From: Oxalicibacterium flavum
GTDB lineage: Bacteria; Pseudomonadota; Gammaproteobacteria; Burkholderiales; Burkholderiaceae_D
Assembly (NCBI RefSeq): GCF_014635065.1
Contig: NZ_BMCG01000002.1
Span: 372,001-436,000, forward strand
Direction of reading: 5' to 3'
DNA: 64,000 bases
In this document: positions 7,605 to 60,453 of the stretch, piece by piece
How positions within the stretch are numbered: the stretch's first letter is position 1
How the letters are laid out: every line of letters begins with the position of its first letter
Notes under the pieces: generated by a model
What the model was told of the DNA's origin: nothing
Seen by the model: the letters and a program-made list of their open reading frames with translations, nothing else
The model's database searches: none
Made by a program: the position numbers and the translations under genes

Positions 7605-8362
7605 TTGGCGACCGCCATTTGCTCGACAACCTGTTGACTGGTACGGCCGAAACGACGTTCGCGTTGCTGGTAGGAGGAGATCGCCAGCCCCAGCGCATCG
7701 GCGTCGAAATCGGGCCAGTAGGTATCGGTGAAATACAGCTCGGTATACGCCAGTTGCCAGAGCAGGAAGTTGGAGATGCGCTCCTCGCCGCCGGTGCGGA
7801 TGAACAGGTCCGGCTCGGGCGCATAAGCCAGCGCCAGATACGGCGCCAGCTCTTCCTCGCCGAAACCGGCAGCGCCCGGATTGTCGGCGATCATGCGATT
7901 GACGGCCTGCATGATGTCCCAGCGGCCGCCGTAATTGGCGCACACCGTGACCGTCAGTCCGGTGTTGGCGGCCGTCTTGCGCTCGGCGCTGGCGATCAGC
8001 TTCTGCAGCTTGTCGTCGAAACGGCTCAGGTCGCCGACGATCTTCAGACGAATGCCGTTGGCGTGCATCTTCGACACCTCGCGTTCGAGCGCGGTGACGA
8101 ACAGGCGCATCAGGGTCGAGACCTCGTCGGCCGGACGACGCCAGTTTTCGGAACTGAAGGCAAAGAAAGTGACGTACTCGACACCCTGGCGGGCGCAGGC
8201 CTCAACCACGCCGCGCACGGCTTCCACGCCCTTGACGTGGCCCGCCACGCGCGGCATGAAGCGTTTGGTCGCCCAGCGTCCGTTGCCATCCATGATGATG
8301 GCGATATGACGCGGCACAGCCGATGTTTCCGGCACGACCTGGGTTGAACTCTTGGACGTCAT
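7598..8362 (-). CDS. uppS: UppS, undecaprenyl diphosphate synthase
   Basis: This is a cis-prenyltransferase that extends farnesyl diphosphate to C55 undecaprenyl diphosphate, the lipid carrier for peptidoglycan and O-antigen units. The 254-residue product carries the signature [12 protein letters not shown] near residue 20 with the catalytic Asp. It also has [11 protein letters not shown] and the C-terminal [15 protein letters not shown] region that binds diphosphate. It is encoded between frr and cdsA as in most proteobacteria. An N-terminal extension of about 17 residues precedes the conserved core. Confidence 0.96.
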
Positions 8363-8411
8363 AGGGTGACAGGCAAATTGGAGAAAACGGAAAAAGAAAA
8401 CGGGGGCCTGC

Positions 8412-8972
8412 TCAAACCGTCATGACCTCTTTTTCCTTCTCGACCACCAGTTTATCGACTTCGGCCACGAAACGATCGGTCAGCTTCTGCACGTCGTCCT
8501 GTGCGCGGCGCTCATCGTCTTCCGAGCACTCCTTGTCCTTCAGCAGCTTCTTCAGGGTCTCGTTGGCATCGCGGCGAATGTTGCGGATCGCGATCTTCGC
8601 GTCTTCCGCTTCGGTCTTGACCAGTTTCACCATTTCGCGGCGGCGCTCTTCGTTGAGCGGCGGCGTTGGCACGCGGATCAGATCGCCCTGCGACGACGGA
8701 TTGAGGCCGAGATCGGCTTCGCGGATTGCCTTTTCGATAGCAGCGCCCATTTTCTTCTCGAACGGCTGCACGCCGATGGTGCGCGCGTCAACCAGCGTCA
8801 GGCTTGCGACCTGGTTGATCGGCGTGGGATTACCGTAGTAGTCGACCGTCACGTGATCGAGAATGCCGACGTGGGCACGGCCGGTGCGCACCTTGGCCAG
8901 GTCGGCCTTCAGCGTCTCGATCGATTTCTGCATCTTCTGCTCGGCGGTCTTCTTTGCATCTGCAACAGACAT
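8412..8972 (-). CDS. frr: Frr, ribosome recycling factor
   Basis: Frr splits post-termination ribosomes together with EF-G. The 186-residue protein matches the family length (about 185). It shows the domain I three-helix bundle beginning [20 protein letters not shown]. The conserved [13 protein letters not shown] and [14 protein letters not shown] blocks follow, then the C-terminal helix [16 protein letters not shown]. It lies between pyrH and uppS in the usual order. Confidence 0.97.
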
Positions 8973-9054
8973 TTACTGCTCTCCTCTTCTTGCTGCGAGT
9001 TGAATCCGGATTATTGATTGATGAAGCATTTGCCGTTCGGCAAACCGTACGCTA

Positions 9055-9771
9055 TCACACGTGGACCAGCGTACCCTCGTCTTCGCCCAGCACGACGCGC
9101 TTCAACGCGCCCGGCTTGACGATGGAGAATACCTTGATCGGCAGGCGCTGGTCGCGGCACAGCGCAAAGGCGGTGGCGTCCATGACCTGCAGGTGCTTGG
9201 AAATGGCTTCGTCGAAGCTGATCGTCGCATAGCGCGTGGCAGACGGATCCTTGTTGGGGTCTGCGCTATAGACGCCATCTACCTTGGTCGCCTTGAGCAC
9301 GACCTCGGCGCCGATTTCCGAACCGCGCAGCGCGGCGGCGGTATCGGTGGTGAAGAACGGGTTGCCGGTACCGGCCGCGAACACCACGATCTTGCCCTCT
9401 TCCAGGTATTGCAGCGCCTTGGGACGCACATAGGGTTCGACCACCTGCTCGATGCCGATGGCCGACATCACACGGGCCGTCATGCCGACTTGCCGCATGG
9501 CATCGGCCAGCGCCAGCGAGTTCATGACGGTGGCCAGCATGCCCATGTAATCGGCCGTGGCGCGATCCATGCCCTGCGCACCCGGTGCGACGCCACGGAA
9601 AATGTTGCCGCCGCCGATCACAATCGCCAGTTCCACGCCCAGTTTTGCCACTTCCGACACATCGGCGACCATTCTTTCGATGGTGGCCCGATTGATTCCG
9701 TATGGATCATCTCCCATCAACGCTTCTCCCGACAGTTTGAGGAGGACACGTTTGTATGCTGGAGTTGTCAT
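9055..9771 (-). CDS. pyrH: PyrH, UMP kinase
   Basis: PyrH phosphorylates UMP to UDP and belongs to the amino acid kinase fold family. The 238-residue product starts [18 protein letters not shown], with the phosphate-binding KLSGEAL loop and the [10 protein letters not shown] glycine loop. The start at 9771 is preferred over the in-frame ATG at 9780, because AAGGA lies about 9 nt before it but directly abuts the upstream ATG. The gene is separated from tsf by an intrinsic terminator and continues into frr. Confidence 0.95.
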
Positions 9772-44134: not shown

Positions 44135-45268
44135 TCAAAGGCTTCGGCCGATAATTTCACGCATGATTTCACTGGTTCCACCAAAGATGCGCAAGGCCCG
44201 TGCATCCGCCCAGGCACGGCCGATATCATATTCCGCCATATAACCGTAGCCACCATGCATCTGCAATAACTCGTCCAGCACCTTGCCTTGCAACTCCGTC
44301 GCGTTCAACTTCGCCATGGCTGCAATGGTTGGATCTAGGTCACCCTCCATATGCTGCCGCAGGCAATCGTCAAGAAATATGCGCAGCATGGTACTTTGGG
44401 AAAATGCATCGGCAAGCCGAAACCGCGTATTCTGATAATCGATCACACGACGGCCGAAAGCCTTGCGAGTACTGGTGTATTCGACGGTCTTGAGCAGCAT
44501 ACCTTCCAGTGAGGCCGCCGCCCTCAAAGCGATAGCCAAACGCTCCTGCGCAAGTTCCCGCGACATGTATTCAAATGCCGCGTTCTCTTCGCCCAACAGG
44601 TTATCGGCCGACACCCTTACATCGTCAAAAAACAGTTCACATGTATCTTGCGCATGCTGCCCGATTTTGTATAAGGGTGAGCCTTTGCTAAATCCGGAAG
44701 CATGCGTTTCAACGCAAAACAACGACAATCCTCTTGCTCCAAGGTCAGGATTCGTACTGGCGACGACCAGAACGAGTCCTGCATTGACACCATTTGTAAT
44801 GAAAGTCTTCTGACCATTGAGTATGTAATGCTGGCCGTCTTTTCGCGCCGTCATGCGGATGGCCTTGAGATCACTGCCTGCTCCGGGTTCTGTCATGGCA
44901 ATGGCGCCGATCAATTCGCCGCATGCCATGGGAACCAACCATCTGTTTTTCTGCTTTTCCGTCCCGTAGGTATGCAGATAGGGCGCGACCATATCTGAAT
45001 GGATCGAGAATCCCACTCCCAGACAATTATTGCGGGCAAGTTCCTCAATAACCACCGCGGCATGGCCGAAATCTCCACCGCCGCCATACGGTTCGGGCAG
45101 CGCACAATTAAGCAGCCCTTCCGAGCCAGCCCTGCGCCATAGCTCCGGAGGCGTAACACCGGCTTGCTCCCAAGCGGAATAATGCGGCAGAATCTCGCGC
45201 TTAACAAAGCGATGCACCTGCTCACGAAAATGTTCGTGGTCATCACGAAAAACGGGACGCTTGCTCAT
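44135..45268 (-). CDS. Acyl-CoA dehydrogenase-family flavoprotein, last gene of the exopolysaccharide operon
   Basis: The 377-residue FAD enzyme has the family signatures AMTEPGAGSDL and FITNGVNAGLV, and a C-terminal FGGTSEIMREIIGR. The usual medium-chain catalytic Glu (YEGT) is Gly here. A Glu in the ELAQERLAIALRA helix fits the base position of long-chain and isovaleryl-CoA dehydrogenases, so the enzyme is probably active. Carrier-protein dehydrogenases such as prolyl-PCP dehydrogenases use the same base position. Its ATG overlaps the algF-like stop (ATGA). Linkage to a carrier protein and an adenylating enzyme suggests action on a carrier-bound acyl group. Ordinary fatty acyl-CoA oxidation is the alternative. 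Confidence 0.85.
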   Translation of the reverse strand: MSKRPVFRDDHEHFREQVHRFVKREILPHYSAWEQAGVTPPELWRRAGSEGLLNCALPEPYGGGGDFGHAAVVIEELARNNCLGVGFSIHSDMVAPYLHTYGTEKQKNRWLVPMACGELIGAIAMTEPGAGSDLKAIRMTARKDGQHYILNGQKTFITNGVNAGLVLVVASTNPDLGARGLSLFCVETHASGFSKGSPLYKIGQHAQDTCELFFDDVRVSADNLLGEENAAFEYMSRELAQERLAIALRAAASLEGMLLKTVEYTSTRKAFGRRVIDYQNTRFRLADAFSQSTMLRIFLDDCLRQHMEGDLDPTIAAMAKLNATELQGKVLDELLQMHGGYGYMAEYDIGRAWADARALRIFGGTSEIMREIIGRSL

Positions 45269-45936
45269 TTCTTGAACGCTTCAGTACGACTGATTTGACC
45301 ATGCAGAACCGGCTTCTTGTTTGTGCCAAGCATGAAGAAGCTGTAATGATCTCCGGGCCTCAATTCTGGCAGTTCAACGACATTCGACATCGCCTCATCA
45401 CATCCTGCATTCAACTTTGCAGACACGGGATTGACGTCTCTCTTGATCGCATTCCCTTGTTTCACTTCCTTGAAAAGCGCGGTGGCGGAAGGCACGATTT
45501 CCAGACGACCGACAGGACAAGCAGACGCCAGATTATAAAAATGCAGCGTCGCCTTGAGGCCATCCTGCCTATCATGGGTATCATCCAGCACGTCGAAGAT
45601 CAGCCGCCCTTCCCGTTGCTTGGGTACCAGCGTCACATAGGTACCAGGCTTGACGGGAACATTGGCCGACTGACCATTGAGTGTCACATTGACATCGCCA
45701 CTTTTGCGAACGATCGCATAGTCGCTAACGATTTGATGCCTTTCCAACTTATTTGGTGCGCCGCTCGCAATTCTGATCTGCAATACGGAAGAATCCATGT
45801 TCACCACTCGCACAAAGGAGGAACCCGCGGGTGGCTTGGCTGCATATAGTTGCGCCAGCGCTCCTTCGGCCATAACCCATGGCGTCGCAGTCATGCCTGC
45901 CACCACGTACAGCAGTCGCTTCCAAATATGATTCAT
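45265..45936 (-). CDS. algF: AlgF-like periplasmic polysaccharide acylation protein
   Basis: The 223-residue protein has a signal peptide (ending PWVMA). It then has the AlgF hallmark LYAAKPPAGSSFVRVVN, a GTYVTLVPK strand, and the later INPVS-like block DVNPVSAKLNAG. AlgF is a periplasmic protein required for O-acetylation of alginate, and WssG is its counterpart in acetylated cellulose. Here it overlaps both neighbours by 4 bp, the DltA-like gene upstream and the dehydrogenase downstream. This ties the acylation machinery to amino acid activation. Confidence 0.82.
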   Translation of the reverse strand: MNHIWKRLLYVVAGMTATPWVMAEGALAQLYAAKPPAGSSFVRVVNMDSSVLQIRIASGAPNKLERHQIVSDYAIVRKSGDVNVTLNGQSANVPVKPGTYVTLVPKQREGRLIFDVLDDTHDRQDGLKATLHFYNLASACPVGRLEIVPSATALFKEVKQGNAIKRDVNPVSAKLNAGCDEAMSNVVELPELRPGDHYSFFMLGTNKKPVLHGQISRTEAFKK

Positions 45937-47402
45937 GCATTCCTCGATTTTTGGGAAAGATAGGTCTGTTTATACAACTGCTCCATCTGCTTTCTATCGA
46001 CCTTGTCAGTAACGGTAATAGACAATTGCTCGCAGGCGAGCAGTTCGGAAGGCACCATGTATGGCGGTAAACGCATTGCCAGAATCTCCCTCCAATTCGC
46101 CAGGCATTCAGGAAGAGCCGTGCCGTTCCCTTCCTCGGTATCACGCAACTCGACGAACCCCACGAGCCTGACTATCGTCCCTTCGGGACGACGCAATGCT
46201 ACTGCCACACCGGCCCGAACCGATGGCAACGCCGACAAAGCCAGATCAATTTCCGCCAGTTCTATACGATAGCCATGGAACTTGATTTGATCGTCCATCC
46301 TGCCGCGGAAGGTCACCAATCCGTGGGAATCCATTTCTCCGATGTCCCCAGTCCGATAGCCGCGTTTACCATCCCGCACAAACATGCGCGTCTGATTCAG
46401 ATCTGAGCGATTCAGATAACCACGCATTACATGATCGCCGGCGATGCAAATTTCACCTTCATCGATGAAGACGGTGGCATAGGGCTTGGCTCGTCCTATG
46501 GGGAAAGGATTCGGCAACGTGTCACGCAAAGTCTTGTCCACCTCCACCCAAGTGGTGGAGCAGGTCGCTTCTGTTGGACCATACGAATTGATGATGCGTG
46601 CTGCTGGAAAACGAAGCCAGATTTCATCAACAAGGGCAACCGACAAGGACTCTGCCCCAAACAGAAAGACGCGCAAATCCGGCATTTTCTCTTGGCAGAA
46701 ATCAGGGTCGATCAGTTGCTGGCGCAGGAAGGACGGCGTGGAAGCCCATACCGTCGCACGGCTGTGAGCAAGATAAGCAAGAAAATGATCCCGGCGCGCA
46801 ATGATCTCCCGCGAACACAATACACATGCGCCACCCGTAACAAGCGCCCCCACCCAGTTGAACAGCGAGAAATCGAAGCTGAACAGCATTTGATCCATGA
46901 AGACCGGCCGCTCTCCCAAGGCCAGGGAATGCAGAATCCAGCCTGCGAACAGACTGACGCTTTCGCGACCGATCTGAACGCCCTTGGGATCGCCCGTGCT
47001 ACCGGACGTAAACATGATGTACGCAACACCCTCTTCTTCCAGACGTGCATCCTGGTTCACAACGCCTTCGAAACATTCCAGCTGCGCATCGTAACGCAGG
47101 GACGTTTTCAACAATGAGGAAATACGCGCAATACGTTCGTGAGGATTGATGACATCGACCGGAACAAACGGCACTTTCATCATGAGGCAACCGAGCATGG
47201 CGATCAGAAAAGCAGGCTCCTTGTGCCCCGTAATGAGCAGAGGCGCTCCGGCAAGGACGCCAGCCGCTTCGGCCTGACGCATCCAGTCATCCGTTGCCTG
47301 TTGCAACTGTTGCCAATCGAGCGAGCCGGAAGCATGTACCACAGCCTGCTCATCGACCATCGCCTCACCGACAAACTCGAATCGGTCGAAATCAAAATGC
47401 AT
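45933..47402 (-). CDS. DltA-like amino acid:carrier protein ligase (adenylation enzyme)
   Basis: The 489-residue enzyme would activate an acid as its AMP ester and load the adjacent carrier protein. It has the P-loop FTSGSTGDPKG (132-141), NSYGPTEAT (272-280), YRTGD, and the catalytic Lys near 467 in DKVDRK. Blocks ITGHKEP, VPVDVINPHERIARI and TVWASTPSFLRQQ match DltA, the D-alanine ligase of teichoic acid alanylation. Asp177 matches DltA Asp197, which binds the substrate amino group. Gly249 replaces the DltA Cys269 that selects D-Ala (B. cereus numbering from memory). The substrate is therefore probably an amino acid, but not certainly D-Ala. AAGGG precedes the ATG. Confidence 0.85.
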   Translation of the reverse strand: MHFDFDRFEFVGEAMVDEQAVVHASGSLDWQQLQQATDDWMRQAEAAGVLAGAPLLITGHKEPAFLIAMLGCLMMKVPFVPVDVINPHERIARISSLLKTSLRYDAQLECFEGVVNQDARLEEEGVAYIMFTSGSTGDPKGVQIGRESVSLFAGWILHSLALGERPVFMDQMLFSFDFSLFNWVGALVTGGACVLCSREIIARRDHFLAYLAHSRATVWASTPSFLRQQLIDPDFCQEKMPDLRVFLFGAESLSVALVDEIWLRFPAARIINSYGPTEATCSTTWVEVDKTLRDTLPNPFPIGRAKPYATVFIDEGEICIAGDHVMRGYLNRSDLNQTRMFVRDGKRGYRTGDIGEMDSHGLVTFRGRMDDQIKFHGYRIELAEIDLALSALPSVRAGVAVALRRPEGTIVRLVGFVELRDTEEGNGTALPECLANWREILAMRLPPYMVPSELLACEQLSITVTDKVDRKQMEQLYKQTYLSQKSRNA

Positions 47403-47423
47403 GATCGCCCTTCCCGCTCCAGA

Positions 47424-47663
47424 TCAATTCGACTGGTGCGAAGCGATGAAATCGGCCAGCGTGGAAATCGACTCCAGATGAACATCTATTTCCGTTGGTG
47501 GAATCTTGCATCCAAATTCGCGCTCTACCGCCAAGGCAACATCCACCGCCGCAAGGGAATCGATCAGGCCCGACTCGACCAGCAAGGTGTCCGTGTCGAC
47601 TTTGGAGAGGACGACTCCTTCGATCAGCTCAGCCACTCGGGCCTCTATCTTTTGTTTGCTCAT
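47424..47663 (-). CDS. DltC-like acyl/peptidyl carrier protein
   Basis: The 79-residue protein has the phosphopantetheine site SGLIDSLAAVD, with Ser36 as the attachment residue. It also has the acidic helix II and III pattern of carrier proteins. Its GLIDSLAAVDVALAVEREFG block resembles DltC (EGLLDSFGTVELLLAIENRF-type). A GGAG lies 7 bp before the ATG. It lies between the MBOAT gene and the DltA-like gene, the same functional set as dltA, dltB and dltC. It is the expected donor for the MBOAT acyltransferase. Confidence 0.88.
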   Translation of the reverse strand: MSKQKIEARVAELIEGVVLSKVDTDTLLVESGLIDSLAAVDVALAVEREFGCKIPPTEIDVHLESISTLADFIASHQSN

Positions 47664-47691
47664 TACTTTTCTCCAAATAGGAAATTCAAAA

Positions 47692-49269
47692 CTAGAATTG
47701 AAAATAAAGAAACCTGGCTTCCTTGTGCAGATTGATCAAGCACAGGAATAACAGGAACAACATCACAAGCAGCCACTGCCATGTTGGCTGCCATTGCATG
47801 AAGCGCCATTTCGCATTTCCTGTCTTGAACAAAGCTGGAGAGTATTCCCCCATGATCTGATGCGCGTTGGGAAAGAACCATGCAATCGACAGGAAAACAA
47901 CGATATAGATCAGTTGCTGATGCTGCCCTAGCATCCATCGCCAGGCATCGGCTGCAGGCAGATCCGCGAAATACGCCCAGGTTTCCCAGGATTCGAATCC
48001 ACGCAGGCCTGCCATTCCCTCCAACAAGCTGCAAGCATCGCCAACGCCGTGCGCACGAAAAAATACCTGCGCCACCAACACCGCAATGAACGTCAGCAAA
48101 ACGCTGGCGGCATGATTGCGCCAGTTGACCTTGCGCGCGGCAGGTTGACGACCGACGAAGAAAATTCTCCATGCATGATTGATCGACAGATAGGCAGCAT
48201 GCAGCAAACCAAACACCAGATATTGCAAACCGGCGCCATGCCAGACTCCGGCCAGACCCATGGTAAAAACCGTCGGAAATACGATCGTGCTGACAAATCC
48301 TCCGAGGGTGCGAACACCCGCCGTTCCTACCGGCAGGCCACGTGCTGTCCGCCGCCGAGAAACCGCCATGGCGACCGGATAATACAGATAAGCAGTCAGA
48401 TAGCGTGTCAGCGTCATGTGCCAACGCGCCCAGAAGTCGATAATGCTGGCAGCCTTGTAAGGCGAGTTGAAATTCAAGGGAAAACGGATGCCGAACATCC
48501 TGGCCAAGCCCAGCGCCATGTCTGAGTAACCGGAAAAATCGAAATACAACTGCAACGCATAGCAAAGAATCGCTGCCCATGCACTCCAGAATTGCAAATC
48601 GCCTGGTGCGGCGAATCCGGTGTCTGCATAGGGAGCAATGCTATCGGCTAACAACACCTTCTTCGCCAGACCGATAACGAACAGCATGCCGCCAGCAGAA
48701 AGATTCTCGGCCTTGAATACATAATTCTCACGTTGCGCGAACTGCGGCATCATCTCTTTGTGATGCAGAATAGGACCGGCGATCAGATGCGGGAAGAAGG
48801 TGACGAATAGCACGTAGCTCAACAGGCTTCGTTCATTGACGATACCTGCACGGCAATCCAGCAGATATCCGAGCTGCGTAAAGGTAAAGAACGAAATACC
48901 CAATGGAAGGATGATGTCTTCAAGCGGTGCATCCGTCACTCCCAGCCCATTCAGAAAAGCCAGAAGGGTAACGAAGTACTTGTAATGGAACAACACCAGA
49001 AGGTTGACAAAAACTGCCATTCCAACCGTCCAGTTCTGTAGTGTCGTACGGTTTCGTAACGCCAGAATGGCGAGGCTAATCAAATAGTTGAACAAGATCG
49101 AACCGGCCAGCAGCACGACAAACTGCGGATTCCACCAACCATAGAAAACGAAAGACGTCAGGCACAGCCAGACCGCTGCAAAACGCAAATTGATTCTTCC
49201 CGCGACGTAATGCACGGTCAGCGTGACCGGCAGAAACACCAGAAGAAAGAGATAGGAGTTGAAAAGCAT
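47692..49269 (-). CDS. algI: MBOAT acyltransferase, AlgI/DltB-like
   Basis: The 525-residue integral membrane protein starts MLFNSYLFLLVFLPVTLTVH and has about ten or more hydrophobic helices. It has MBOAT landmarks: FSGYSDMALGLARMFG, FWARWHMTLTRYL, and the invariant active-site His in GLAGVWHGAG. AlgI, WssH and DltB pass an acyl group from a cytoplasmic donor across the membrane to periplasmic or extracellular transferases. Here the likely donor is the thioester on the neighbouring carrier protein. The gene starts 12 bp after the AlgJ-like stop, without an obvious Shine-Dalgarno sequence (only an A-rich leader). Confidence 0.92.
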   Translation of the reverse strand: MLFNSYLFLLVFLPVTLTVHYVAGRINLRFAAVWLCLTSFVFYGWWNPQFVVLLAGSILFNYLISLAILALRNRTTLQNWTVGMAVFVNLLVLFHYKYFVTLLAFLNGLGVTDAPLEDIILPLGISFFTFTQLGYLLDCRAGIVNERSLLSYVLFVTFFPHLIAGPILHHKEMMPQFAQRENYVFKAENLSAGGMLFVIGLAKKVLLADSIAPYADTGFAAPGDLQFWSAWAAILCYALQLYFDFSGYSDMALGLARMFGIRFPLNFNSPYKAASIIDFWARWHMTLTRYLTAYLYYPVAMAVSRRRTARGLPVGTAGVRTLGGFVSTIVFPTVFTMGLAGVWHGAGLQYLVFGLLHAAYLSINHAWRIFFVGRQPAARKVNWRNHAASVLLTFIAVLVAQVFFRAHGVGDACSLLEGMAGLRGFESWETWAYFADLPAADAWRWMLGQHQQLIYIVVFLSIAWFFPNAHQIMGEYSPALFKTGNAKWRFMQWQPTWQWLLVMLFLLFLCLINLHKEARFLYFQF

Positions 49270-49281
49270 TTTATTTATTTT

Positions 49282-50331
49282 TTATTGCCGTGCTGCGAGT
49301 GCTGCACGCTCAGCCTCTGTCAAAGGCAGTGAAAGCGCCAATTCGGAAAACTCCCAGATCACCAGTTTCAGAGTGGATGGCCATGAGCTTTTCTGTTTCA
49401 AGGCTTCTTGCAACGCTCCGGAGAACTGCCCGCCATCCATGCTGATGTTCCATACCTCGCGCCCCAGAGCCATGCCAAGGTGTTCGGCAAAGTAACTGCG
49501 CCGACCATTGGAACTACCCGCCAAGAGAACCTCTGCCGCAGGGCCGTCATCCAGAAGTCCGCCGCCACGTACAACACTTATCGGTTGCTCGGATACCACG
49601 TCAAGTTTGGGCCGCCATTTTTCCGGAGCATTCTCCAGACCGGCAAGAACGATCAGATCACCCATGCGAGGACGAAGAGGTTCAGCCTCTTCAAACTTGA
49701 ACAGCTGATTGCTACGTCCCTTCAGCAGGACAAGTGCCTCTTCTGCCACACTAGCTGCAGCAATCCGTGCGCCAACAGCATTCATGTGCGCATCGGTCCG
49801 AAAAAAAAGTGGTTCGTTCGCCTGCAACATGGCTGGACGCAAATCGGCAAAAGGCACCCCGTCCTTTTTCAACTCAGCCTGCCATTCGTCCAGTTTTTGG
49901 CGCATGGACTCAGACACAGACAAGCCGCAAAGATGCGCCGACTCGACACGCGATTTATCAGGAACGGCGACGACAAGAATCTGCACGCCCTGCTGTCTGA
50001 TCTGGCTGATCCAGATACGCATGAGTTGCAACCGCTCGGCCAGCACGCTACCCGCTGCAGGTTGCAGCCCATCCTGGTAAAACAACCATTGCGGGCAACC
50101 CAGTCTCACCTTGCTTCCGAGATCTCCCAGAAAGCGATAGCGCCATGCGGCATTCCAAGTATTGATGCTGTCCTGCATTGGCAAGCGCAAAGACGAATTC
50201 AATGCCTGAGAAACAGTCACGCCGCCACCTCCGGCTACAGCACTGACTATCAGCCATGTGCTCCAGAGTAGCCCTGCCAACAGCAAGCCAGCTATTGCGC
50301 CAGCTATCAAGCGATGCGATTTACCGACCAT
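49282..50331 (-). CDS. AlgJ-like membrane-anchored SGNH acyltransferase
   Basis: The 349-residue protein starts MVGKSHRLIAGAIAGLLLAG with one N-terminal membrane anchor, so the enzyme faces the periplasm. It keeps the catalytic Asp-x-His (RTDAHMN, Asp180 and His182) and a Ser in LLAGSSNGR (Ser273/Ser274), the triad of AlgJ, AlgX and WssI proteins. It is predicted to take the acyl group from the MBOAT protein and pass it to the polymer or to the AlgX-like partner. The ATG at 50331 overlaps the AlgX-like stop by 11 bp; an earlier ATG at 50352 lacks a ribosome-binding site. Confidence 0.82.
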   Translation of the reverse strand: MVGKSHRLIAGAIAGLLLAGLLWSTWLIVSAVAGGGGVTVSQALNSSLRLPMQDSINTWNAAWRYRFLGDLGSKVRLGCPQWLFYQDGLQPAAGSVLAERLQLMRIWISQIRQQGVQILVVAVPDKSRVESAHLCGLSVSESMRQKLDEWQAELKKDGVPFADLRPAMLQANEPLFFRTDAHMNAVGARIAAASVAEEALVLLKGRSNQLFKFEEAEPLRPRMGDLIVLAGLENAPEKWRPKLDVVSEQPISVVRGGGLLDDGPAAEVLLAGSSNGRRSYFAEHLGMALGREVWNISMDGGQFSGALQEALKQKSSWPSTLKLVIWEFSELALSLPLTEAERAALAARQ

Positions 50332-51340
50332 GATCCAGTTTGACCAATGCATCGTTTACGCGAGCAGCCCATTGCGCAGGAGGCATCAAGGACCCGCTGT
50401 CCCAGCTTCCTGTCGCATCCGGGCCTTGGCTGAAAACCGGATCGAAAATCTGCCATAACAGAACTTGGGGTGGTGACTTTCTAAACTCATCGGATTCCAG
50501 ATATTCCAGCAGTACCATCCATGGGCCGACATTCCCTGGTTTCCAGTTCAATGACACCGGGCGATCAAGCGCTTGGGACAATTTCTGCGGAAAGCCGAAA
50601 TAAGGCTGCACCATGCTGTGTCCGCTAATATGCACGGGAGATGGGCCACTTTCATCAAGCAACTCTCCGGCTACGCTGCGCCGTGTGGTATACGTCTCGC
50701 GTCCTATCTGCTTGCGCTCTTCCGGAGAAAGGAACAACTCCGCAAGATCGCCAAACCGCCTTTCCCTGACCTCTGCTCCCAGTTGCAAACCGGTTCCAGC
50801 CTTCCCCTTCAGTACCGGTATCTGCTTCTTGATGAATTCAGCACTCGCTACCGCAGTCGCTTCTGCTGCCGGCAAAGTCCAATGCTGATCCGAACGGTAA
50901 TAAGCAGGAACACCTTTCTTCTGCTCAGCTTGCAGCAAAGCCTTCACATCCAAAATCGGCATTCCGGCCGCATCCAGCTTTTTCAAGATCGTTTCATACC
51001 TACCCAACACCGCGGGGCTGACCTGACGGTTTGCGGGCAATTTGTCCTGTGCGAAATAGACTTTGTCGGGGAGCAGTAATACCTCAAGACGCACTCCCCG
51101 CTCAGCAAGTGCATGACGCACAAAAGCCAGGAGCTTGACGGATGCATCGATTCCGTTTTCATCCAATACCGTCAGGCTGCCCCAACCCGGGAATAGCCAT
51201 CCCTCATTTCCTTTTATTACCAGTTGTGTGGAGTTCTGAGGAGAAACAGGATCTGCCTGCACACCTATTGCAGCCGCACTCAGTACGCAGGCAATCAATG
51301 CACGGTATAAAAACATGGGCATGGAAAAAGGAATTGTCAC
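50321..51340 (-). CDS. AlgX-like periplasmic SGNH acyltransferase
   Basis: The 339-residue protein has a signal peptide (ending AIGVQA). An SGNH-like domain follows, with KGNEGWLF, the catalytic Asp-x-His in YYRSDQHWT (Asp151, His153) and Ser242 in HISGHSMVQ. These match AlgX and WssF, which attach acetyl groups to alginate or cellulose in the periplasm. The start is a GTG at 51340 with GGAG 6 bp upstream. The carbohydrate-binding domain of AlgX is not evident. It is the first acylation gene after nfrA in the operon. Confidence 0.85.
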   Translation of the reverse strand: MTIPFSMPMFLYRALIACVLSAAAIGVQADPVSPQNSTQLVIKGNEGWLFPGWGSLTVLDENGIDASVKLLAFVRHALAERGVRLEVLLLPDKVYFAQDKLPANRQVSPAVLGRYETILKKLDAAGMPILDVKALLQAEQKKGVPAYYRSDQHWTLPAAEATAVASAEFIKKQIPVLKGKAGTGLQLGAEVRERRFGDLAELFLSPEERKQIGRETYTTRRSVAGELLDESGPSPVHISGHSMVQPYFGFPQKLSQALDRPVSLNWKPGNVGPWMVLLEYLESDEFRKSPPQVLLWQIFDPVFSQGPDATGSWDSGSLMPPAQWAARVNDALVKLDHGR

Positions 51341-51364: not shown

Positions 51365-54118
51365 TTAATAAGAAAACGTCATGTTCATGAACAGGCCACG
51401 TGCACGGCCTGCATCGCCGCCTCCGATGTTGATGCGATATTGCAAGGTCCAATCGATATACGAGCGTGGTGCGTTATAGCGGTCCTCACGGAACCAATAG
51501 CGCACATTGATACCAGGACCTGCTCCCAATGCCCAACTGGAACCATTGCCCTGAAGAGGCACGTCTCCGCTCAGGTTTGACGTATTCAACACTGCGCGAT
51601 CCCTCTGCCATAACCAGTCGATCCCCCCAACCACGTAGGGAAATACAACCAGCCGCTCGCTGAGATCATCCAGCCGCATACTGCGTCCCACCCTGACTTC
51701 CGCGGCAGCGAATGACTGATCCTGTCTCAGTCTTCCGGACGATTCAGACTGCACAACATTCGTTGACGAATTTGTTTCCCGGATACGTATTGACGAATTT
51801 CCAGTGATATAACCCGCCTGCATGTAACCTTCCATCGTCCACCAGCTCCTCTCATCCATGCGCAAGCCGGTCCCTTCGTAGAATCCATAGGTCATGTAGG
51901 CCATCCAGTTACCACTTGAACTGGAGGCTTGGTAGGGATAAGTGAGATTCACGCTTTGCAGGGCGCACCTTCTATCCACATCGGATGGAATGATCGTTCC
52001 ACGCCGAGTGGCATGTCCGAGATTAAAGCGGCGCTCCAGTCCGAAGGTGAATCCGGAACTGGTTGACGGAGTCAGCCGCGCCCCCAGCGCGGCTACTGTT
52101 GTCGGCCATCCTGCCAAGCCATTCCCTTGTGACTCCGCAATGGCAAGCGATCCATTACCACATGGATTCGAAATGGTTTGTGCATCGGTGCGGCCGCCTT
52201 CGTCGTACAACGTGTTCGACAAACGACCATATATTTCAAAGACACGCGTGGAAGTATTGAGAAAGTCGGCAGGACGCCAATAGGCTTCGGCTGTGCCGAA
52301 AACGGCGTTTCCCGGCACCGTGACAGCAGCTCCGGCAGCCCCCGAAGAAGCCGGCCTGGCACCGCGATAACCGACGGAATAGGATGCCCCCCATTCGCGC
52401 GACAAGCCTGCAATACCAGCTCGAGTGTTGTAGCGTTGTTCTTGCGTCAATGGCAGATGACCATCGTCCGCCTCGTCAATAGCGTGCTTAAGTGCGTCGA
52501 CCGCCATTTGCTTGTTCCCCACTCCTGCAAAGGCGTAAGCCTCATCGATCACCAGTGTCGGAGGCGCCTTTCCCGTCGCGCGCGCAGCCTTGAAGTCCTG
52601 CAGCGCCTGACGCGGCTGTCCTAATCTTTGCGATAAATAAGCGCGTTGAATGAGAAGATTCACGTCGTCGGGCTTTTTCTCCAGTGCCTCGATCAGCATG
52701 CCTTCTGCTTCCTTCTGCTGAGTTGCATTTCCTGCGCTCAAGGCAGTCATCAGCAAACGCTGATTGTCCACATTGTCAGGCTGCTCCTTGACAGCCTGAC
52801 GAGCATATTCAATGGCCTGCTGATACTGTTGACGTCCGTAGGCGATATATGCCATCGCTGCAGATCCACTTCCTTCCACACCATCCCAGGGCTGCATCTC
52901 GCAAACGGTACCGTAAGGCGTAGCGCGGCATACCTGGAACGGCGCCATGTAGGCAGCGGCAGACAGATCGACCTTGCCACGCTCCCTCCGAGCCGCCTGG
53001 CGGCGGCGCTCAGCTAGCTCATCGTCCTTGGGCAAAAACGACAACAGGCCCAACGCACGTTCTTGCCGGCCGGAAGCGATCGCGGCATCGGAAGCCAGCA
53101 GACGTACATTGCGTACCTGTGTTTCATCCAGCCAGTCCAGTGCGAGTACCGCATCGAAATCCTCATCGGCAGCTTGATTGTCATGCTTTCGTTGTCTTAC
53201 ATACGCACGCAATACTTGTACCGCAACGCTTTCATCATCGATATCAAGCGCATCTGTCGCAGCCTGTTCAGCCTCCGCCAGACGGTTCAACTCAACTAGA
53301 ATGGTTACCTGAACCAGTCTGTAATTGAGAGAATCAGGCGCCAATGCAATAACCTTGTTTATCAAGGAAAGTGCATCTTCCAAGCGCCCATTCATCAATG
53401 CGCCATGCGCCTCTTCCGCAGGACGAATTGCCATTGAACGCCTTGCGTTACGCTGCCGTGCTTCCAGGTCCGCCCGATTGGGTGCACCGGCATCAATGGC
53501 TTTCTGGGCAGCCGCAGCCGTCTGTTCATACTTTTGTTGAGCATCCAGCGCGTCCAACCATAAAAGCGCCCAGTTTCCTTGAGAAGGATCGGTCAGATAG
53601 GCAACTTCCGCATCGCGGCTTGCATCCTCAAACCTTTGCTGATTGAATGCATCGTAAGCACGAGTGGCGATCGGAAACGCCTTGCGATATGCAGGTGTAT
53701 CCGTGCTTGATCCGCCTCCGGAAGCGGAAAGGTTGTTGCGTGCCTGAAGTAACTGAGAATTACCCAAACCATCCTTGATGGCTTGCTCCACGACTGCATT
53801 CGCCTCGACCAGCTTGCCTCGTTTCTGCAGAATGAAAACCAGCAACAAACGCAGTCTCGCAATGTCCGGGCGCAGACGAATTGCCCGTTCGGCTTGTGAT
53901 TGTGCGGATTGCAGGCGGCCGGCGTCGTAGTTCTTGTATGCCTGGTCTGCCAGACGCCATGCCTCCCCCGTAAGCGGCACTTCCTTGTTTCGTTTTTCCA
54001 CAACCCGCGTTGACATCAGCGAATCATCGACGACCTCGGCAAGGACAGAGTGCGAAGCGAACAACATACCAAGAACGAGTATGGAGATACCAAGCCAGCA
54101 AAAGCGAAATGAAGACAT
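51365..54118 (-). CDS. nfrA: NfrA-like outer membrane polysaccharide export protein with TPR domain
   Basis: The 917-residue protein has a signal peptide (ending SVLA). About 500 residues of tetratricopeptide-type repeats follow (for example AYKNYDAGRLQSAQSQAERA and YGRQQYQQAIEYARQAV). A C-terminal part of about 300 residues is typical of an outer membrane beta barrel and ends MNMTFSY. The arrangement matches NfrA, the outer membrane protein of the E. coli Nfr glycan system and receptor of phage N4, and is analogous to BcsC. The first base of its start overlaps the nfrB stop (TGATG), so translation is coupled. Confidence 0.85.
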   Translation of the reverse strand: MSSFRFCWLGISILVLGMLFASHSVLAEVVDDSLMSTRVVEKRNKEVPLTGEAWRLADQAYKNYDAGRLQSAQSQAERAIRLRPDIARLRLLLVFILQKRGKLVEANAVVEQAIKDGLGNSQLLQARNNLSASGGGSSTDTPAYRKAFPIATRAYDAFNQQRFEDASRDAEVAYLTDPSQGNWALLWLDALDAQQKYEQTAAAAQKAIDAGAPNRADLEARQRNARRSMAIRPAEEAHGALMNGRLEDALSLINKVIALAPDSLNYRLVQVTILVELNRLAEAEQAATDALDIDDESVAVQVLRAYVRQRKHDNQAADEDFDAVLALDWLDETQVRNVRLLASDAAIASGRQERALGLLSFLPKDDELAERRRQAARRERGKVDLSAAAYMAPFQVCRATPYGTVCEMQPWDGVEGSGSAAMAYIAYGRQQYQQAIEYARQAVKEQPDNVDNQRLLMTALSAGNATQQKEAEGMLIEALEKKPDDVNLLIQRAYLSQRLGQPRQALQDFKAARATGKAPPTLVIDEAYAFAGVGNKQMAVDALKHAIDEADDGHLPLTQEQRYNTRAGIAGLSREWGASYSVGYRGARPASSGAAGAAVTVPGNAVFGTAEAYWRPADFLNTSTRVFEIYGRLSNTLYDEGGRTDAQTISNPCGNGSLAIAESQGNGLAGWPTTVAALGARLTPSTSSGFTFGLERRFNLGHATRRGTIIPSDVDRRCALQSVNLTYPYQASSSSGNWMAYMTYGFYEGTGLRMDERSWWTMEGYMQAGYITGNSSIRIRETNSSTNVVQSESSGRLRQDQSFAAAEVRVGRSMRLDDLSERLVVFPYVVGGIDWLWQRDRAVLNTSNLSGDVPLQGNGSSWALGAGPGINVRYWFREDRYNAPRSYIDWTLQYRINIGGGDAGRARGLFMNMTFSY

Positions 54119-55821
54119 CAGGCAGCCTTTTCCTCAAGCATTGCATTGCTCAGGGAGAACCGCTCCTGCTCCATCACACCTTTCTGAAACGCGATCGCTT
54201 CCTCAAGCGTCGATTGATCCAGCCAGTTTTCTCGCATCATGATTTCACCCAGCGGCCGCTTCTCTTTTTCTTGTATTTCGAGCGCTTTGTTCAGGATGTC
54301 TTCATCAATGGCCTGCCAGGACAACAGCAGTTCGCCAAGGCGCAGCTTTTGTTGCGCAAGCTGATCTGTCGATGGGAAATCGTGCATGGTCTTGTCCCAG
54401 GCCAGCCGCTTGCCTGTAACAAGGTGCACAATAAAAAGACGCCACGCACGAGCTGCAGCCGCGGCGTTAATGAAGTTGCCAACGATCATGCGGGGAACGG
54501 AAAGCAAGGCATGCTCCCATCCATACATGGTGCCGACAAAGTAGGCACGTTGTGTGACACGCAAAAACAAGGCAAATGCATTGAGGCCCATCAGCGTAAC
54601 CAACCAGCCTCCTGGAGGGAAAACAGAGGGGTAATAGACGGTCCAGATACCAAGTTTATCGAGAACGAAGAACGCCAGAAAATTGGCCAGAAGGACATAA
54701 GCCAATATAGCCACGAAGGATGTCACCAGCCCTTTGCGATCGCGAAAAAGCAGGTATTTGACCGCTAACGAACCTTCCCATCCGACTTGCTGCCATCCCT
54801 GCAGGGCGATTCCCAAGGTCCATCGTGCCTTCTGTCTGTAAGCGGTGAAAAAGGTGTTGGGGAAATACTCGCGCACGCCCAGTGGCATGCGCAAGGTGGA
54901 CATCTGCTCTTTTCCAAAACCGAACAACGGATTCCGACGAACCAGATACTCGACCGGGAATTTTCCGAAAATCTGTTTCATGCCTCGACGTGCAAGGCGT
55001 GCACCAATGTCATAGTCCTCTGTTAGCGTGTCGCTGTTGAAAGGCTGATTATTCGTTTCCGCCGCCAGCTCTTCCATTGCCCTGCGCGAGAAGCAGGTGC
55101 CGACACCCGCCGATGGAACCATTCTCGACAGACTTTCACGAACGACCAAATCCTTGCTGTGCCACTCGGCAAATTCGTCCATGTACGTACCGGCCACCAA
55201 CTCATACCATTCGCGCTCCAACGATGTCACTGGCAATTGGATGAAATCGATGCGGGGAAGCAGGTAGTTGTAATACTTCAGTTCCAGCGGGTGCAGAACA
55301 TCTTCACTGTCATGCAGAATCATGCCGGCGAAAGGCTCGGATCGCCTGTCCCCCTCGGCAAAGATCGCCTGCACGATCCAGTTAAGGCAATCCGCCTTGC
55401 AGGTTGGTCCTGCGTGTGGCACTTCCACACGAATCAATTGCCGATAACGGCGACGCATGCGCTCGACTTCCTTGATGGTCCGCTCATCATTGCAATACGT
55501 TCCGACAAAAATCATGTAGTTCTTGTATTCGAGCGTCGACACCATGTTCTCAAGCATGGGAGCGATGACGTCAAATTCCAGCCAGGCCGGAACCATGATG
55601 GCAAGTGGCTGCTCCTCACGCGAGCGCAATTGCTCAGTTGTCAGTGCCGCATACCGTTTGCTGACCGTGAATTTTCGATAGACCTGCCGTACCCAGTACC
55701 AGACATCGATAAAAATGTCATCAAGACTCGAAAGCAGGATGACTACCCCTACCACGGCGGTAAGCAGCTCGAGGTAGTGGTAGTAATCGGCAATCAGGTA
55801 AGGCAAGTAAAGAGAAGACAT
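54118..55821 (-). CDS. nfrB: NfrB-like processive glycosyltransferase with C-terminal MshEN domain
   Basis: The 567-residue membrane glycosyltransferase (GT2 type) has Asp residues in HDSEDVLHP (171-174), TEDYD (267-271), and the synthase motif QKARW (330-334). About four membrane helices follow. The C-terminus has two 24-residue MshEN motifs, RLGELLLSWQAIDEDIL... (494-517) and PLGEIMMRENWL... (523-546), separated by exactly five residues. MshEN domains bind c-di-GMP, and E. coli NfrB is described as c-di-GMP controlled. Position 1 of motif II is Pro and position 10 is not Gly in either motif, so binding needs testing. The gene overlaps nfrA by one base. Confidence 0.9.
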   Translation of the reverse strand: MSSLYLPYLIADYYHYLELLTAVVGVVILLSSLDDIFIDVWYWVRQVYRKFTVSKRYAALTTEQLRSREEQPLAIMVPAWLEFDVIAPMLENMVSTLEYKNYMIFVGTYCNDERTIKEVERMRRRYRQLIRVEVPHAGPTCKADCLNWIVQAIFAEGDRRSEPFAGMILHDSEDVLHPLELKYYNYLLPRIDFIQLPVTSLEREWYELVAGTYMDEFAEWHSKDLVVRESLSRMVPSAGVGTCFSRRAMEELAAETNNQPFNSDTLTEDYDIGARLARRGMKQIFGKFPVEYLVRRNPLFGFGKEQMSTLRMPLGVREYFPNTFFTAYRQKARWTLGIALQGWQQVGWEGSLAVKYLLFRDRKGLVTSFVAILAYVLLANFLAFFVLDKLGIWTVYYPSVFPPGGWLVTLMGLNAFALFLRVTQRAYFVGTMYGWEHALLSVPRMIVGNFINAAAAARAWRLFIVHLVTGKRLAWDKTMHDFPSTDQLAQQKLRLGELLLSWQAIDEDILNKALEIQEKEKRPLGEIMMRENWLDQSTLEEAIAFQKGVMEQERFSLSNAMLEEKAA

Positions 55822-58080: not shown

Positions 58081-59223
58081 TTAACTACCGGTAAATTCCG
58101 ATACAGATCGCCCACACAACGCGTCCACGATTCTGGTACTGGCATTGCCGTCGCCGTAGGGATTCATGCGCAAACAGACGCTGTCATAGCGCTTCCGATC
58201 GTCCAGCAACGCATTGACTTCGGTGACGATCCTTTCATGAGACGTCCCCACCAATGTCACCGTACCTGCGGCGACTGCCTCCGGCCGCTCCGTTACTTCC
58301 CGCATGACCAGAACCGGCTTCCCAAGGTAAGGCGCTTCTTCCTGCACCCCACCGGAATCGGTCAGAATGATGCTGGCTTGCTGCATGAACCAGACAAAGT
58401 CGAGGTAATCCAAAGGGGCGATCAAATGCACATTCCCCAAGCCTGACAACTTCTCTCTGACGACATCGTTCACATTTGGATTCAAATGGACCGGATAGAC
58501 GATCTGTACGTCATCTCGCCGAGACAACTGATGCAAGGCGGTACAGATATTTCGGAAGCCGTCACCGAAACTCTCACGGCGATGCCCAGTGACCAGTAAC
58601 AGGCGACGGTTACGATCGATCCATGAATACTTTTCTTCGAGGGGACGCAAAAGGCTTTCATCTTCCGAGAGCCTGCGGCAAGTCATGGCAAGGGCATCGA
58701 TCACTGTGTTGCCTGTGATGAAAACCCGTCCTTGCAAGTTTTCTTTCAGCAGATTGTTTCGCGACGTTGCCGTAGGGGCAAAAAGCCATGTAGCCACGGT
58801 ATCGATAAAACGTCGGTTCATCTCTTCAGGAAATGGCAATGCCATGTTCCCGGTTCGCAACCCAGCTTCCACATGTGCGATTGCGATATTTCTATGAAAG
58901 GCGGCCAAGGCACAGGCGGAAGCTGTCGTTGTATCGCCATGTACCAGCACGACATCCGGTTGCTCCGCCATCAGGACCGCATCGATCTTTTGTAGCAAAC
59001 TGGCGAATAGGCCATTCAGCGTCTGATTACGCACCATCAGGTTCAAGTCATGGTCGGCCTGCAGACTAAACAGTCGCATTACCTGATCCAGCATTTCTCG
59101 GTGCTGTCCGGTTACGCACAACCTGCTTTCCACTCCACCCGCTTCCTTCAACAGGTGAACTAGAGGCGCCATCTTGATTGCCTCTGGACGCGTGCCAACT
59201 ACCGAAAGTATTTTTATTGCCAT
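58081..59223 (-). CDS. wecB: WecB, UDP-N-acetylglucosamine 2-epimerase
   Basis: The 380-residue enzyme converts UDP-GlcNAc to UDP-ManNAc. It has the N-terminal ILSVVGTRPEAIKMAPL, Asp in VHGDTTTAS, Glu in HVEAGLRTG, PFPEEMNRR, the active-site GHRRESFGDGF, and the UDP-binding SGGVQEEAPYLG. It is the first gene of the operon. E. coli WecB is reported to provide UDP-ManNAc for the Nfr glycan, which supports a ManNAc-containing polymer here. The ATG at 59223 (MAIKILSVVG) is preferred over a GTG seven codons upstream. No wecC follows, so ManNAcA and enterobacterial common antigen are unlikely. Confidence 0.95.
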   Translation of the reverse strand: MAIKILSVVGTRPEAIKMAPLVHLLKEAGGVESRLCVTGQHREMLDQVMRLFSLQADHDLNLMVRNQTLNGLFASLLQKIDAVLMAEQPDVVLVHGDTTTASACALAAFHRNIAIAHVEAGLRTGNMALPFPEEMNRRFIDTVATWLFAPTATSRNNLLKENLQGRVFITGNTVIDALAMTCRRLSEDESLLRPLEEKYSWIDRNRRLLLVTGHRRESFGDGFRNICTALHQLSRRDDVQIVYPVHLNPNVNDVVREKLSGLGNVHLIAPLDYLDFVWFMQQASIILTDSGGVQEEAPYLGKPVLVMREVTERPEAVAAGTVTLVGTSHERIVTEVNALLDDRKRYDSVCLRMNPYGDGNASTRIVDALCGRSVSEFTGS

Positions 59224-59267: not shown

Positions 59268-59295
59268 ATTAAAGGAGGATAAAAAGCCATATCAA
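59268..59295 (-). promoter_or_regulatory. Candidate promoter of the exopolysaccharide operon
   Basis: On the minus strand, TTGATA (59295-59290) and TTTAAT (59273-59268) are separated by 16 bp, about 45 bp before the wecB ATG. It is the best sigma-70 type match in the region but not strong, consistent with an activated or conditional promoter. The nearest palindrome is centred about 50 bp further upstream. Confidence 0.4.
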
Positions 59296-59335: not shown

Positions 59336-59355
59336 CCATTTCCATGTGGAAATGG
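59336..59355. repeat. Palindrome 1 upstream of wecB
   Basis: CCATTTCCA and TGGAAATGG are exact inverted arms around TG. The core TTTCC-N4-GGAAA is shared with two other palindromes in the same gap. It lies about 113 bp before the wecB ATG and could be an operator. Confidence 0.7.
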
Positions 59356-59456
59356 CGAGCAGGCGCAATTCAAACAAATTAGTTGCAGCAGTTCAATCCG
59401 AAAGACGTTGCGTAATGACTCCCAAATTCATGGGAAGGCACTAAAAAGATACTTTT

Positions 59457-59472
59457 ATTTCCACATGGAAAT
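59457..59472. repeat. Palindrome 2 upstream of wecB
   Basis: ATTTCCA and TGGAAAT are exact inverted arms around CA. It is centred 119 bp from palindrome 1 and shares its core. Confidence 0.7.
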
Positions 59473-59604
59473 TTAATTAACAATTACCAAAAGATGGCAG
59501 GAACTGTTTTTTGTTTAGCCGCTTGGCTATTGAGGAAAATTGGGAATTCTTTCCTCGGCAGGGATTTAACAATTGCCTCGAAATGCAAACAATTGTTTCC
59601 TAGC

Positions 59605-59636
59605 AACAGAACATTTCCGCATGGAAATGTTCTGTT
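59605..59636. repeat. Palindrome 3, long hairpin after yaaA
   Basis: AACAGAACATTTCC and GGAAATGTTCTGTT are exact 14-bp inverted arms around GCAT. It is 12 bp beyond the yaaA stop and contains the same TTTCC-N4-GGAAA core. It lacks a T-tract, so it is not a standard terminator, but it could end the yaaA transcript or act as a regulatory site. Confidence 0.75.
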
Positions 59637-59647
59637 ACTAAAAGAGA

Positions 59648-60424
59648 TCACTCGGCGATTTTACGTTTGAATACCCAGGTCGACTCATTGGATCCGCTTT
59701 CATCGAAAACATAGCCCTCGGTATCGAATTTCTTCAATTGCTGCGGCCGCACGAACGCCTTGTCGATTGCATAGCGCGCCATCAAACCGCGCGCGCGTTT
59801 GGCATGAAACGAGATCACCTTGTACTTGCCGTCCTTCCAGTCGAGAAAGACCGGCGTGACGACCGGAACGTCGAGCAAGGCCGGCCGCACCACCTTGAAG
59901 TATTCCTCCGACGCCAGATTCACCAGCGCGGTCGCGCCGGTTTCGGCAATCTGCCTGTTCAAGGCCTGCGTCACCTCGTCGTCCCAGAAGGCATAGAGGT
60001 CCTTACCGGCCGGGTTGGCCAATCGCGTGCCCATCTCGAGCCGGTATGGCTGCATCAGGTCCAGCGGCCGCAGCAGGCCGTAAAGACCGGATAGAATGCG
60101 AAGGTGCGCCTGTGCGTACTGCAACTGCGCCGCATTCATCGTCGCCGCATTCAATCCCTCATAGACATCGCCGTTGAAGGCCAGCATGGCCTGCTTGGAA
60201 TTTGCGACGGTAAAGCGCGTGGACCATTCGGCGTAGCGATTGACGTTGAGTGTCGCGAGCTTGTCCGAAATCTTCATCAGGCTGGCGATCTGTGCCGGCG
60301 ATTGGCGGCGCAGGATATCGATCAGTTCGGCCGAACGCTTGACGAAATCGGGCCTGGTGCTGACATCGGTATGCGCGGGCGTATCGTAATCGAGGGTCTT
60401 GGCAGGCGACAGGACTATGAGCAT
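59648..60424 (-). CDS. yaaA: YaaA family peroxide-stress / DUF328 protein
   Basis: The 258-residue protein starts [16 protein letters not shown], the YaaA signature, and has the conserved [24 protein letters not shown] and [11 protein letters not shown] blocks. E. coli YaaA limits intracellular free iron during peroxide stress and binds DNA; the molecular reaction is not settled. The start at 60424 is preceded by GGAAGAG. It is divergent from the PIN-domain gene across 29 bp and lies upstream of the exopolysaccharide operon without an apparent link in function. Confidence 0.93.
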
Positions 60425-60453
60425 TTCTCTTCCGGACAAAGGTAAAGCTGGCA

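Follow-up and report, generated by a model that had tools for sequence, protein, structure and literature searches.

A palindrome repeated upstream of an exopolysaccharide operon of Oxalicibacterium flavum marks a putative lineage-specific motility and biofilm regulon

BvgA, a NarL/FixJ response regulator from Bordetella, recognizes inverted TTTCCTA heptads at fhaB (PMC4314077), and an inverted heptad is also given as the optimal site in a further study (PMC7250471). In Burkholderia, an exopolysaccharide cluster is controlled by the c-di-GMP effectors Bcam1349/BerA and BerB (PMC3584217, PMC5552954). Among the published sites found, the inverted heptad of BvgA is the closest to a palindrome that recurs in a 64-kb window (the whole stretch of DNA analyzed) of the Oxalicibacterium flavum genome. 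The motif string itself, TTTCCNNNNGGAAA, was not found in the literature searched, and combined searches returned nothing direct, a hint that the motif may be previously undescribed.

TTTCCNNNNGGAAA has exactly three matches in the window, at 59339-59352, 59458-59471, and 59614-59627, as opposed to an expected mean of 0.05 in dinucleotide shuffles, none of which (0/100) reaches three. A preliminary description of this DNA had reported three perfect inverted repeats with a TTTCC-N4-GGAAA core. All three were recovered where it had placed them, centered at 59345.5, 59464.5, and 59620.5 (spacings of 119 and 156 bp), and each lengthens to a perfect 16-mer, ATTTCC-N4-GGAAAT. They share a 424-bp gap between yaaA and a wecB-led acetylated-exopolysaccharide operon, limited by the minus-strand start codon of wecB (near 59223) and the yaaA stop at 59648 (Table 1). 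One other apparent gap in the window, at 8362-9055, is occupied by a 186-aa open reading frame. In palindrome 3, the symmetry continues outward as CAGAAC..GTTCTG, and in palindrome 2 it ends at 16 bp. Since the longer symmetry of sites 1 and 3 is not common to both and is absent from site 2, the shared element is 16 bp long.

The product of the operon looks like an acylated exopolysaccharide. Its NfrB-like glycosyltransferase harbors a C-terminal MshE-type c-di-GMP-binding domain (residues 494-546; NF053729, E = 5.4e-13), and the exopolysaccharide synthase itself is probably c-di-GMP-controlled. The 739-aa BcsB-like protein matched no Pfam or NCBIfam model.

Table 1. Features of the exopolysaccharide locus (window positions) and of the motif targets elsewhere in the host genome, G000 (contig:position).
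Feature	Position	Strand	Basis or remark
Polysaccharide acylation genes: two AlgX-type, MBOAT, AMP-binding, AlgF, acyl-CoA dehydrogenase	44135..51340	-	
NfrA/TPR outer-membrane protein	51365..54118	-	NfrA_C
NfrB-like glycosyltransferase	54118..55821	-	NF012033, 929.9 bits
BcsB-like membrane/periplasmic protein, 739 aa	55825..58044	-	by reading
wecB-like UDP-GlcNAc 2-epimerase, first gene of the operon	58081..59223	-	TIGR00236, 461.6 bits
Candidate sigma-70 promoter of wecB, TTGATA-N16-TTTAAT	59295..59268	-	by eye; 5/6 and 5/6
Operator-like palindrome 1, ATTTCCATGTGGAAAT	59338..59353	.	symmetry goes on as CGCC..GGCG
Operator-like palindrome 2, ATTTCCACATGGAAAT	59457..59472	.	plain 16-bp form
Operator-like palindrome 3, ATTTCCGCATGGAAAT	59613..59628	.	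~20 bp past yaaA stop codon
Long inverted repeat around palindrome 3	59598..59643	-	21-bp stem, 4-nt loop as RNA; -29.2 kcal/mol, z -8.7
yaaA, peroxide stress protein	59648..60430	-	
cheW	C1:388162		
CHASE-PAS protein	C1:416039		GGDEF domain ~1.7 kb on
MHYT-GGDEF protein	C2:562716		MHYT label by reading
FecR/LysM protein	C2:603464		
UDP-glucose dehydrogenase (Ugd)	C2:666807		
Diguanylate cyclase	C2:691612		
Two chemoreceptors	C4:115017, C5:11533		
Another diguanylate cyclase	C4:127456		
Gap adjoining pilM	C4:321971		

Inverted repeats of this kind may function as RNA hairpins (i.e., as a terminator, an attenuator, or a 3′ stabilizer) rather than as DNA operators. Sites 1 and 3 are strong RNA folders (z of -6.4 and -8.7), the yaaA stop codon directly precedes site 3, and the long hairpin found there is possibly the 3′ hairpin of yaaA. 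Site 2, however, folds no better than chance (z of -0.7), the common part comprises only 16 bp and has A/T flanks at the sites elsewhere, and the sequence itself, beyond mere pairing, is kept across promoters of unrelated genes. The stems also lack a trailing U-tract, including that of site 3, and a scan of the yaaA-wecB gap for intrinsic terminators found none. A function at the RNA level is therefore improbable. An Rfam search gave no match.

The weak promoter that had been placed downstream of the sites, as seen by the automatic scan, is at chance level. That scan requires the second base of the -10 element to be A, hence the candidate promoter of wecB noticed by eye, which sits between site 1 and wecB, goes unreported. 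If this candidate is used, the centers of sites 1, 2, and 3 lie ~85, ~205, and ~360 bp upstream of the predicted start, respectively. These distances would favor activation from afar over blocking, and the location of site 1 would be activator-like. In mcp promoters, the site is found immediately upstream of a conserved CGATAATA, at roughly -35 to -40, which, compared to ~85 bp at wecB, indicates that placement varies between targets. The distance from the site to a -10 element showed no clear peak beyond the A/T-rich flank. For DNA looping, also suggested at the outset, nothing speaks apart from there being three sites: the majority of the other targets have a single one, and the spacings in the gap are out of phase (11.3 and 14.9 helical turns of 10.5 bp).

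A genome scan, one of the checks proposed in the preliminary description, showed the motif to be over-represented. In the host genome (G000, 3.2 Mb), TTTCCN4GGAAA occurs 14 times versus 2 for a reversed-pattern control, and the TTTCC-RYRY-GGAAA form occurs 8 times versus 0. With at most one mismatch allowed, ATTTCCNYRNGGAAAT yields 11, 18, and 13 sites in three genomes of the genus versus 1, 0, and 0 in the controls. Apart from the host, 12 genomes represent the genus; 11 of them have the RYRY site, which is missing from G003. The RYRY site is also found 3-4 times versus 0 in each of G017, G026, G029, G034, and G035, which represent five other genera of the family, and falls to the background level in other families (60 relatives scanned). 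G013 has 16 RYRY sites versus 0 controls and 57 matches to the N4 form versus 0, the count in this genome being inflated by at least six N4 matches that lie within a repeated transposase gene. This gene encodes a 448-aa transposase-like protein, is present in at least six copies (L269, L276, L277, L283, L288, and L291), and holds TTTCCTGAGGGAAA near its 3′ end. The consensus has A/T-rich flanks, with A at -1 in 79% of the sites, followed by TTTCC(A/G)(C/T), in which the preference at the inner bases is inflated by a set that was partly picked by its RYRY form.

Some matches are intragenic (e.g., C6:34619) and six of those in G013 are copies of one transposase, as would be expected of chance palindromes or of a functionless dispersed repeat. 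Against such an origin, the motif exceeds its reversed controls in many genomes, the sites adjoin coherent gene classes, the motif persists as an island inside a diverged gap, and, unlike a mobile element, it shows no repetition past 16 bp. Enrichment and conservation already contradict this explanation, leaving it with a very small probability.

The neighboring genes fall into recognizable classes. A GGDEF or MCP domain is found no more than 2.5 kb from seven of the 12 independent sites in G000 (covered fraction of 0.053, P = 7.6e-7), from 8 of 17 in G010 (P = 6.4e-6), and from 2 of 12 in G011, the last being not significant (P = 0.2); these P values assume uniform positions, ignore the intergenic preference of the sites, and are somewhat too small. 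In the relatives, a site precedes pilC in the pilB-pilC gap (G001, G008, G009, and G010), a TolC-type gene adjoining yaaA (G009 and G002), an HDOD gene (G002, G005, and G011), and a pilin gene (G034). The same type of diguanylate cyclase carries a site in G000, G010, and G007, as well as in G017 of another genus. The target domains retrieved by domain search are GGDEF, MCP, CheW, PilB/PilC, PilM, Ugd, FecR/LysM, HDOD, PgaA, and TolC-type. G013 has the most sites, yet its targets are more mixed, and those of G026 and G029 look unrelated.

In G011, two palindromes are located 23 bp apart upstream of a pgaA-like gene (L297:1481-1519), such that a different matrix operon has the same sites. A further conserved site adjoins a gene whose product is 206-227 aa long (MSNIAGKAYAMNV...), at L121, L107, L097, L342, and L058. 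In the host genus, this site-bearing gene is divergent from a gene for a receiver/Hpt protein, and the G013 copy likewise has a site.

Comparison of related genomes, a further check that had been proposed, shows the palindrome to be conserved in the pilB-pilC and mcp regions. Alignment of the pilB-pilC gap from four species gives a mean identity of 59%, and no other block of the gap is as well conserved as the palindrome. Three species share 22 unchanged bp, palindrome included, upstream of one mcp gene, in a region that is well conserved overall. The cheW site of G003 has decayed to two mismatches. In G009 and G002, the motif occurs at the same place as palindrome 3, past yaaA. In the two relatives readable there, the gene beside yaaA differs, so the sites of the exopolysaccharide gap cannot be traced along this operon into sister species. 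The expectation that the motif would also precede homologous operons was not borne out: it is found at none of 80 loci of the homologous glycosyltransferase in other taxa (Achromobacter, Pandoraea, Pseudomonas, and others; 1.2 Mb), where the reversed control also gives 0. The site is thus more readily assigned to a regulatory network of the lineage than to the operon.

With the sites themselves shown, along with enrichment across the genome, conservation, and the classes of genes targeted, the palindromes are best explained as the sites of one dimeric factor that would coordinate chemotaxis, c-di-GMP signaling, and matrix production in the genus and in some related genera, a reading to which a probability of about 0.87 is assigned. 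A protein would bind the sites, it would be the same protein throughout, and it would act here on the transcription of wecB. Judging by the consensus, the binding protein should be a symmetrical dimer. It is proposed to recognize ATTTCC-N4-GGAAAT with a preferred central RYRY (e.g., ACAT or ATGT) and A/T-rich flanks, and the same factor would bind before diguanylate cyclase, chemoreceptor, cheW, type IV pilus, and surface-polysaccharide or adhesin genes. Binding at these targets would couple chemotaxis, c-di-GMP signaling, and matrix production.

On the best reading, the sites in the exopolysaccharide gap belong to a lineage-specific motility and biofilm regulon and are not dedicated to the operon. 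The earlier view of repeated operator-like sites for a specific factor thus survives in part, strengthened by genome-wide enrichment, coherent gene neighbors, and conservation in alignments, and loses its component of a dedicated exopolysaccharide-operon switch. What began as three palindromes in one promoter is now the map of a putative regulon whose consensus can be tested. The targets that recur across species are chemoreceptor, cheW, pilus, and diguanylate cyclase genes, whereas the matrix genes hooked to this site seem to be particular to each species: in the host, those of an NfrB/Alg-like polysaccharide; in G011, pgaA; and in both G009 and G002, a TolC-type gene.

Candidate factors were sought among proteins with GerE, HTH_Crp_2, and HTH_8 domains. 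None of the screened proteins combines a clean presence/absence fit with an autoregulatory site, and no such site at one mismatch or less in the 16-mer lies beside the GerE and CRP genes. In G010, a perfect site is located 6 bp before the start of a LysR gene. These observations give slightly better than even odds that the factor belongs to another DNA-binding family (Xre, TetR, LysR, MarR, or others), even though no single one of these is positively favored.

The best lead within the screened classes, albeit a rather doubtful one, is a BvgA-like NarL/FixJ response regulator encoded beside fliC (G000 C2:442135-442782), phosphorylation of which would allow head-to-head dimers to bind inverted TTTCC(A/G)(C/T) heptads. 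The site architecture equals that of the high-affinity BvgA site, with its inverted TTTCCTA heptads (PMC4314077). The regulator has REC and GerE domains, its neighbors are a HisKA_3 kinase, a GGDEF gene, and flagellin, and its gene lies ~10.7 kb from the operators, ~6 kb outside the right end of the window. Among the site-bearing genera, close orthologues (76-84%) were found in G017, G034, and G035, the other genera with matching targets, and a 62% orthologue in G013. G000, G003, G034, and G035 have the same predicted recognition helix, from which G013 departs at one position. The regulator is, however, found throughout the genus (13 of 13 genomes), even in G003, where there is no RYRY site, and G026, with four sites, has no strong orthologue among the matches listed. 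Moreover, its own promoter has no site, and other NarL-type regulators suit the architecture equally well.

Genes for a PAS-PAS histidine kinase, a NarL-type regulator, and a diguanylate cyclase are found directly upstream of flagellin (L302:4295-10133, corresponding to G000 C2:440295-446133). This layout recurs in G003, with variations in G034 and G035. A fuller and still less probable scheme is a family-restricted regulon in the role of FleQ, in which a flagellar-locus two-component system, through a BvgA-like regulator reading inverted TTTCCRY heptads, might switch chemotaxis, c-di-GMP synthesis, pili, and the matrix system particular to each species.

Several other factors were considered and set aside. 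CRP/FNR is weakly excluded, as both G000 proteins have orthologues (78-86%) in G003 despite the lack of sites there. Among the enhancer-binding proteins, only the one at G000 C1:731725 fits the presence of sites in G000 and G010 and their absence from G003; it adjoins kinase and MFS transporter genes and is therefore probably unrelated. The L221-type REC-GerE regulator is absent from G006 and G010, both of which have sites. Against a FleQ/sigma-54 regulon, the sigma-54 promoter matches near the sites are weak and in slight excess only (9 versus 4 at two mismatches or less), and sigma-28 promoters there are likewise only slightly over-represented.

The described systems resemble the present one in different respects. 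FNR/CRP sites (TTGAT-N4-ATCAA) share the 5-N4-5 geometry and the A/T-rich flanks and differ in the half-site. BerA and BerB are similar in coming from a related order, in controlling exopolysaccharide, and in their link to c-di-GMP. The paper on BerB describes no palindrome, in contrast to the site found here, and an HTH_Crp_2 search retrieved no BerA-like protein from G000 or G009 and one, assigned by reading, from G013. The c-di-GMP-responsive FleQ regulon of Pseudomonas has comparable targets, i.e., motility, diguanylate cyclases, adhesin/TolC-type secretion, and exopolysaccharides. The DNA site of FleQ differs from the motif described here. BvgA originates from the same bacterial order and controls surface adhesion genes, and its inverted heptads also start with TTTCC and abut without a gap, which gives TTTCC-N4-GGAAA. 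The agreement extends to the first five bases and the gap-free 7+7 layout; the inner two bases differ, being (A/G)(C/T) here and TA in BvgA. In addition, the strong palindromes are for the most part solitary here, in contrast to the 22-bp-spaced arrays of BvgA promoters, and the genes targeted here belong to chemotaxis and c-di-GMP signaling. Once found, the protein would be a betaproteobacterial motility-biofilm regulator distinct from the known FleQ, BerA/BerB, and BvgA cases.
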